A stretch of DNA of 53,134 nt from Candidatus Endomicrobiellum mastotermitis (GTDB lineage Bacteria > Elusimicrobiota > Endomicrobiia > Endomicrobiales > Endomicrobiaceae). The DNA lies in NCBI GenBank assembly GCA_031272445.1, contig JAISTT010000006.1, positions 1-53,134 on the forward strand, read 5' to 3'. Below, piece by piece: positions 16,650-20,467 of the stretch. The translations under genes and the position numbers were made by a program. The first letter of the stretch is position 1, and every line of letters starts with the position of its first letter. The notes under the pieces were generated by a model. That model did no database searches. It saw only the letters and a list, made by a program, of their open reading frames with translations, and was not told the DNA's origin.

Positions 16650-16706
16650 AATTGTTGAGTCTTTAATTTTCATAGTATGCGAAATAATACATGCAAGGGA
16701 GATAAA

Positions 16707-18104
16707 TTGAAATATATAGATGAGATAAAAATAAATTCTTTGCTTAGAGTTCCTGTAAATGAAAAAGAAGTTGTCAGAATTTTAGAAAAATCAACACAAC
16801 TAAAAAGACTTAGTCTAGAAGAATCTGCAAAACTTTTATGCGTAAATGATTATGCAATCCTTCAAAAAATTTATGATGCAGCCTTTTATGTAAAAAATAG
16901 TATATACGGTAGACGTGTTGTACTTTTTGTCCCTCTTTATATAAGTAATATTTGTGAGAATAGCTGCCTTTACTGCGGTTTTTCTTCAAAAAATAAGACT
17001 ACTATTAGAAAAAGGCTTACATTTAAGGAAGTACTAGAGCAGACGAAAATACTTTTGAAAAGAGGGCATAAACGTATTTTGATGGTTGCTGGAGAGATGG
17101 CTTATTCAAAAGAGAGTATAGGTTATTATATCAATGCAATTAAAGCAATTTATAGTGCAAGCTATAAAGGAAATAGAATAAAAAGAGTGAATGTAAATGT
17201 TGCTCCTATGAATGTTGAAGATTTTGGAAAACTTAAAGAGGCGGGTGTTGGTACATATCAAATATTCCAAGAAACTTACCATGAGGAAACTTATAAAAAG
17301 CTCCATACTTCTGGTGCAAAGTCTGACTTTTATAATCGTTTAAACGCTGTAGATAATGCATTTAAGGCTGGTATTAACGATGTTGGGATAGGGCCATTGC
17401 TAGGTCTTTATGATCATCGTTTTGAAATCCTTGCATTGCTTATGCATATTGAATATCTAGAAAAAACTTATGGGATAGGGCCTCACACTATTTCTGTTCC
17501 ACGCATTGAACCTGCTCCTGGATCTGAATATTCACTAAATCCTGAACATTTTATTTCAGATGAGGAATTTAAAAAGTTAGTTTCCGTTTTAAGACTCTCT
17601 GTTCCTTATACTGGTATAATAATGTCAACTAGAGAAACTGCAAATTTAAGAGATGTTCTTATAAACTTAGGTGTTTCTCAAATAAGTGCAGAATCTAAAG
17701 TTACTCCCGGTGGATATGAAAATAATTTAAAAGAGGCTATCAATAATGATGAACCTGGGAGACAATTTAGCCTGAGTGATCAGCGCTCATTAAATGAAAT
17801 AATAATCTCTTTGCTTTCCAAAGGGTTTATTCCAAGCTTTTGTGCTGCATGTTATCGAAAAAATAGAATAGGGAAGAGTTTCATGAATTTAGCAAAATCT
17901 GGAGAAATAAAACATATGTGTGATATAAATGCTTTGATTACTTTTAAAGAGTATCTTGAGGATTTTGCAGACCCAAAAATTATAAAATTAGGGAATAGTT
18001 TTATTGAGGAATATAAGATGAAAATTCTTGATGAAATTAGTCTTGAAGTGCTAGACAAGTTTTTGTTAAACGTAGATGCTGGTGTACGAGATGTTTATGT
18101 TTAA
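16707..18104 (+). CDS. hydG: [FeFe]-hydrogenase H-cluster maturase HydG (radical SAM)
   Basis: HydG cleaves tyrosine to yield the CO and cyanide ligands of the [FeFe]-hydrogenase active site. The radical-SAM cluster motif is CENSCLYC (Cx3CxxC). The product is about 465 residues, longer than the related thiamine enzyme ThiH (about 370). It has the extra C-terminal domain that binds the auxiliary cluster, with FCAACYRKNRIGKSFM and a distal cysteine in KHMCDINA. TTG at 16707 is preferred because AAGGGAG lies about seven bases upstream; ATG at 16677, in the same frame, would add ten residues and lacks such a site. hydE, hydF and the hydrogenase itself are not in the window. It follows thrS after a short gap. 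Confidence 0.92.
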   Translation: MKYIDEIKINSLLRVPVNEKEVVRILEKSTQLKRLSLEESAKLLCVNDYAILQKIYDAAFYVKNSIYGRRVVLFVPLYISNICENSCLYCGFSSKNKTTIRKRLTFKEVLEQTKILLKRGHKRILMVAGEMAYSKESIGYYINAIKAIYSASYKGNRIKRVNVNVAPMNVEDFGKLKEAGVGTYQIFQETYHEETYKKLHTSGAKSDFYNRLNAVDNAFKAGINDVGIGPLLGLYDHRFEILALLMHIEYLEKTYGIGPHTISVPRIEPAPGSEYSLNPEHFISDEEFKKLVSVLRLSVPYTGIIMSTRETANLRDVLINLGVSQISAESKVTPGGYENNLKEAINNDEPGRQFSLSDQRSLNEIIISLLSKGFIPSFCAACYRKNRIGKSFMNLAKSGEIKHMCDINALITFKEYLEDFADPKIIKLGNSFIEEYKMKILDEISLEVLDKFLLNVDAGVRDVYV

Positions 18105-18172: not shown

Positions 18173-18202
18173 TTGACATAGGTTGTTTTAATTTTGTATA
18201 AT
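18173..18202 (+). promoter_or_regulatory. Consensus sigma-70 promoter P1 of groESL
   Basis: TTGACA (18173-18178) and TATAAT (18197-18202) are both perfect consensus hexamers, 18 bases apart. This is the upstream copy, about 230 bases before groES. Confidence 0.85.
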
Positions 18203-18228
18203 AAGCGGTCGTAATGTGACAGTGCTAA
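18202..18228 (+). promoter_or_regulatory. Degenerate CIRCE-like operator O1 (HrcA type)
   Basis: TAAGCGGTC, nine bases, then CAGTGCTAA matches the CIRCE layout TTAGCACTC-N9-GAGTGCTAA with the exact spacing. Six of nine left-half and eight of nine right-half positions agree. It starts on the last base of the -10 box, the usual CIRCE position near the transcription start. Confidence 0.6.
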
Positions 18229-18326
18229 AAATAGGAAAGTGATAGTTAGCAATTATTACAAAGCAGAGTAATAGTAATAAAATAATAGAAGTATATTGAG
18301 TAAGTACGAAAATTTGTAAGGCTAGG

Positions 18327-18356
18327 TTGACATAGTTTGTTTTAATTTTGTATAAT
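18327..18356 (+). promoter_or_regulatory. Consensus sigma-70 promoter P2 of groESL
   Basis: TTGACA (18327-18332), an 18-base spacer and TATAAT (18351-18356). Transcription would begin about 70 bases before the groES ATG. Confidence 0.85.
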
Positions 18357-18382
18357 AAGCGGTCGTAGTGTGACAGTGCTAA
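18356..18382 (+). promoter_or_regulatory. Degenerate CIRCE-like operator O2 (HrcA type)
   Basis: TAAGCGGTC-N9-CAGTGCTAA, with the same halves as O1, again overlapping the 3' edge of the -10 box. HrcA itself is not encoded in the window. Confidence 0.6.
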
Positions 18383-18431
18383 AAATAGGAAAGATACAGA
18401 AAATAATATAAAATGTAAGGAGGAAGTAAAG

Positions 18432-20425: not shown

Positions 20426-20467
20426 AAAAAATGAAACTCCCAAGGGAAACTTGGGAGTTTCATTTTT
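20426..20467. terminator. Bidirectional intrinsic terminator between groEL and xerC/D
   Basis: AAAAATGAAACTCCCAAG and CTTGGGAGTTTCATTTTT form a long perfect stem (about 18 bp including the A/T flanks) closed by GGAAA. The T-run on one side and A-run on the other allow termination from groEL and from the minus-strand xerC/D-topA unit. Confidence 0.93.

Follow-up and report, generated by a model that had tools for sequence, protein, structure and literature searches.

A doubled promoter and CIRCE-type operator upstream of groESL in one Endomicrobium/Endomicrobiellum-type clade

Endosymbionts have high GroEL, which might come either from a loss of regulation or from the gain of a regulated promoter. 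The groESL locus described here bears on this question: upstream of groES, a strong promoter and the CIRCE-type operator that overlaps it are both present twice. We asked whether this arrangement is better read as an escape from HrcA control or as its enlargement. The window, i.e. the whole stretch of 53,134 nucleotides that was analysed, makes up contig 9 of the genome G000 (0.8 Mb, 85.9% complete).

Two complete modules upstream of groES

The repeat search found the 67-nt module twice (Table 1), with two differences between the copies (97% identity), a distance of 154 nt from start to start and a gap of 87 nt. No third copy was found elsewhere in the genome, and a dispersed repeat was rejected on that ground. 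Both promoters match the consensus hexamers at 12 of 12 positions with a spacing within the usual 16-18 nt; they are the only perfect TTGACA-N16-18-TATAAT sequences of the 53 kb window, where 0.12 would be expected by chance. The last T of each TATAAT (18202 and 18356) is at the same time the first T of an operator composed of two 9-nt inverted arms with exactly 9 nt between them, located at the promoter of groESL, as is the case for CIRCE. The preliminary description of this DNA had pointed to two 67-base copies with two differences, two perfect sigma-70 promoters with an 18-base spacer, and the CIRCE layout with its exact N9 upstream of groESL. All of this was borne out, the stated 154 bases being the start-to-start distance and the downstream genes matching PF00166 and PF00118.

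Table 1. Features of the groESL locus (positions in the window) and the hrcA gene of the same genome
Feature	Position	Strand	Evidence
Module P1, upstream copy, 67 nt	18173..18239	+	Repeat search; one other copy in genome
Module P2, groES-proximal copy, 65/67 identical to P1	18327..18393	+	Repeat search, cross-species comparison
Sigma-70 promoter P1, TTGACA-N18-TATAAT	18173..18202	+	Hexamer match
Sigma-70 promoter P2, TTGACA-N18-TATAAT	18327..18356	+	Hexamer match
CIRCE-type operator O1, TAAGCGGTC-GTAATGTGA-CAGTGCTAA, 14/18	18202..18228	+	
CIRCE-type operator O2, TAAGCGGTC-GTAGTGTGA-CAGTGCTAA, 14/18	18356..18382	+	
groES (Cpn10), 94 aa	18432..18716	+	PF00166 E 6.5e-36
groEL (Cpn60), 542 aa	18750..20378	+	PF00118 E 1.1e-82
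Intrinsic terminator-like hairpin, 18 pairs, strong, 3' of groEL	20427..20467	+	
hrcA, intact frame	G000:C5 (L105:3266-4309)	-	PF01628 E 2e-53

Compared with the canonical TTAGCACTC-N9-GAGTGCTAA, the match of each operator is divided between a weak left arm (6/9, without the canonical A6 and C7) and a right arm of 8/9. O1 and O2 are the best two CIRCE-like sites of the window (the next best score 13, then 12), and only 3 of 2 000 shuffles of the 327-nt intergenic region reached 14 even once. A strict CIRCE search allowing three mismatches gave no match, because the sites carry four. A pattern of the operator type matched the whole genome at exactly three places, namely at both groESL operators and at the hrcA operator; the reversed control of the pattern gave no match. 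No Rfam family reached the gathering threshold near groES, either here or in the sister genome G006, and an RNA element or thermometer was rejected accordingly.

Operator and repressor across the genus

We searched 35 relatives of the same genus, which has small genomes and, as its named neighbours in the database, Endomicrobium/Endomicrobiellum from termite guts. The sequence upstream of groES was compared in 31 genomes of the genus, our own included. In 30 of the 31, a TTGACA-N17/18-TATAAT-like groES promoter carries the operator on its -10 box with the fixed 9-9-9 geometry. The operator is lost in G029 (L008), which keeps the groES promoter and has the weakest HrcA match of the genus (140.6 bits). 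In L106, named Endomicrobium labiotermitis and considered as a free-living comparison, a CIRCE-like site was absent within 450 nt upstream of groES.

Across the genus, the information content of the groES operators is 1.42 (left arm) and 1.57 (right arm) bits per column; the N9 has 0.56, the upstream flank 0.73 and the downstream flank 0.62. The difference between the arms and the N9 argues that the operator is under constraint. CIRCE has a C at position 7 of the left arm; all 28 tabulated proximal sites of the genus have G (18) or A (10) there instead. The hrcA operators of the genus mostly keep AGCACTC, and the other genera of the order retain TTAGCACTT at groES. Only the A6-to-G change (GCGGTC) is confined to the window genome and G012. 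Thus, judged by these alignments, the seemingly degraded left arm is mostly the genus-wide form of the groES operator, and the operator does not look eroded, contrary to what had been proposed at the outset. Repression could nevertheless be partial, each operator having 4 mismatches in 18, more than the hrcA operator.

The repressor gene, which the preliminary description had suggested looking for elsewhere in the genome, is intact and stands in the order hrcA-grpE-dnaK on contig 5. Residues 6-342 of the 347 of its product align with Thermotoga HrcA (1STZ), i.e. nearly end to end. A check of dnaK/grpE for the same degenerate half-site had also been suggested; the operator upstream of hrcA-grpE-dnaK turned out to be near-canonical (15/18). 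Regarding other routes of heat-shock control, a single Sigma70_r2 protein (open frame of 548 aa) was found in this 85.9% complete genome and no RpoH-like heat-shock sigma factor was found in the incomplete assembly, which makes an RpoH-type response unlikely.

Origin and probable homogenisation of the two copies

Two modules at groES were found in four genomes, G000, G001, G006 and G027, with spacings of 154, 140, 178 and 158, respectively; the remaining 27 have one module, save the one that lacks the operator. In the GroEL tree these four form one clade (support 100/98), i.e. one change. Comparison of the upstream region across related genomes, as proposed earlier, recovered the same duplication in three separately assembled sister species. 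With two modules in one clade and one in nearly all other genus members examined, the duplication is, on this comparative evidence, real, characteristic of the clade and more ancient than its species. By the same reading, a single doubling took place in the clade's ancestor; single origin is argued from the GroEL clade, and spacer descent is shown for one pair only. The upstream copy P1 would be the addition and P2 positionally ancestral, since the proximal copy occupies the position of the single copy in other species. Both promoter copies have perfect hexamers in G000 and G006. G027 has a weakened proximal copy (TATAAC, TGGGCTGTC) and thus does not strictly depend on two good ones.

Within G000, 38 positions of the module lie outside the hexamers and arms, and P1 and P2 differ at 2 of them. 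Orthologous copies of G000 and G001 differ at 27 of 76 (Fisher p 2e-4 against the within-G000 comparison, in a test that treats sites as independent), and in a tree of the modules the two copies of G000 split from all others with support 93.7/94. The copies within G000 being far more alike than orthologues between species, they were probably homogenised by recombination after the doubling. We infer gene conversion as the route rather than a fresh re-duplication, either being possible. The copies of G001 show the same trend, which is not significant; it is absent in G006 and G027. If the copies of G000 were indeed homogenised, the locus would be a modest, naturally occurring example of concerted evolution in bacterial regulatory DNA.

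The flanks of P1 and P2 show no similarity above shuffles, and a tandem duplication of the full 154-nt unit, which we considered, is no longer visible. Among intermodule sequences of different species, similarity stands out from shuffled sequence only for the pair G000-G001 (equalled by 1 of 300 shuffles), and it is for this pair alone that a shared origin of the spacer is shown. In G006 (L004), 111 nt of intermodule sequence, about -222 to -112 from groES, are unrelated to those of its sisters and have no Rfam match.

Proposed regulated promoter gain and its alternatives

We consider it likely that groESL is driven by two tandem HrcA-repressible sigma-70 promoters that raise its derepressed output, the module having been doubled once and its copies re-homogenised later. 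Given the layout and the established biology of HrcA, two HrcA-blocked starts that open together are predicted. HrcA bound to an operator that begins at the last -10 base would stand in the way of RNA polymerase or of promoter clearance. Upon titration of the chaperonin by misfolded protein, HrcA, whose GroE-dependent activity was described in PMC1676014, would lose its activity and both promoters would fire. The operon would then have two start sites with presumably additive output: the second promoter would set a higher derepressed maximum, and the second operator would keep the added promoter under control.

The reading favoured in the preliminary description, that GroEL is made constitutively at a high level from the doubled promoter while relaxed selection in an endosymbiont lets the operator decay, fits the high GroEL of such bacteria, the small genomes of the genus and the four mismatches per operator, with A6 and C7 missing from TAAGCGGTC. 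We regard it as unlikely. Throughout the genus the arms are much better conserved than spacer and flanks, the core is kept in both copies and in most sister copies, and both HrcA and its own near-canonical operator are retained; real decay looks rather like G029, with the operator gone and the lowest HrcA score of the genus. In addition, the CIRCE of the heat-induced Streptococcus thermophilus groESL, TTAGCAGTT-N9-GAGTGCTAA, has the same G at position 7 of the left arm, although in a single copy (PMC3192767). Still less probable is a joint action of the two operators, in which looping or cooperation between HrcA dimers on O1 and O2 tightens repression and the doubling of the promoter is a by-product. 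The second, promoterless operator that four further genera of this order have at groES (see below) speaks for it, yet the spacings of the four double-module species, from 140 to 178, show no fixed helical phasing, and both promoter copies are kept as well. A recent neutral tandem duplication private to G000, or an assembly artefact, would account for the 97% identity of the copies but is very improbable, as three more separately assembled species of one GroEL clade share the architecture and the flanks of the copies have no residual similarity.

One extension of regulated promoter gain is more speculative. The predicted recognition helix of HrcA has R-K in 4 of 4 double-module species and R-N or R-S in the other genus members examined. 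This Asn-to-Lys change on one branch is a lead with no statistical link to the doubling. That recurrent gene conversion keeps the jointly repressed modules identical in a genome-reduced endosymbiont, and that repressor and operator co-evolved through this change, is conceivable but rather doubtful.

Compared with the class I type of Bacillus subtilis, the 9-9-9 repeat at the groESL and hrcA-grpE-dnaK promoters and the intact HrcA are shared; what differs is the groES left arm and the doubling of promoter and operator as a unit. The dnaK operon of Lactococcus lactis likewise has two CIRCE elements that overlap its promoter (PMC1676014), but in one promoter region, not in two complete modules at groESL. 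A degenerate CIRCE with the Waddlia/Chlamydia HrcA core TAGCA-N15-TGCTAA has been proposed for intracellular bacteria, according to the passage citing it in PMC8762339; relative to the core given there, the TGCTAA half is kept here and the left core is AAGCG. In the four other genera (L036, L037, L043, L048), the promoter-linked CIRCE is preceded by a second canonical one at a distance of 72-131 nt; they share two operators upstream of groES with our locus, unlike which they have canonical arms and one promoter.

In a limited search of literature titles and abstracts, no doubling of a complete promoter and operator was found. According to PMC11257099, Endomicrobiellum comprises endosymbionts that live in flagellates and have small, AT-rich genomes; neither that paper nor PMC8809381 mentions GroEL or heat shock. 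The window presumably belongs to this group. The doubled module is a modest new variation on well-known bacterial heat-shock control. It suggests that those members of the genus with strongly reduced genomes, which group with endosymbionts of termite flagellates, retain HrcA control of the chaperonin, and that one clade enlarged this control by doubling the switch rather than losing it.

Upstream of groES, a gene for a radical SAM and BATS protein (HydG/ThiH-like; window 16677-18104) is intact in G000 and present in several relatives. In G001 and G027 (L003, L005) only fragment matches to it were found upstream of groES, which suggests that the gene is decaying there.
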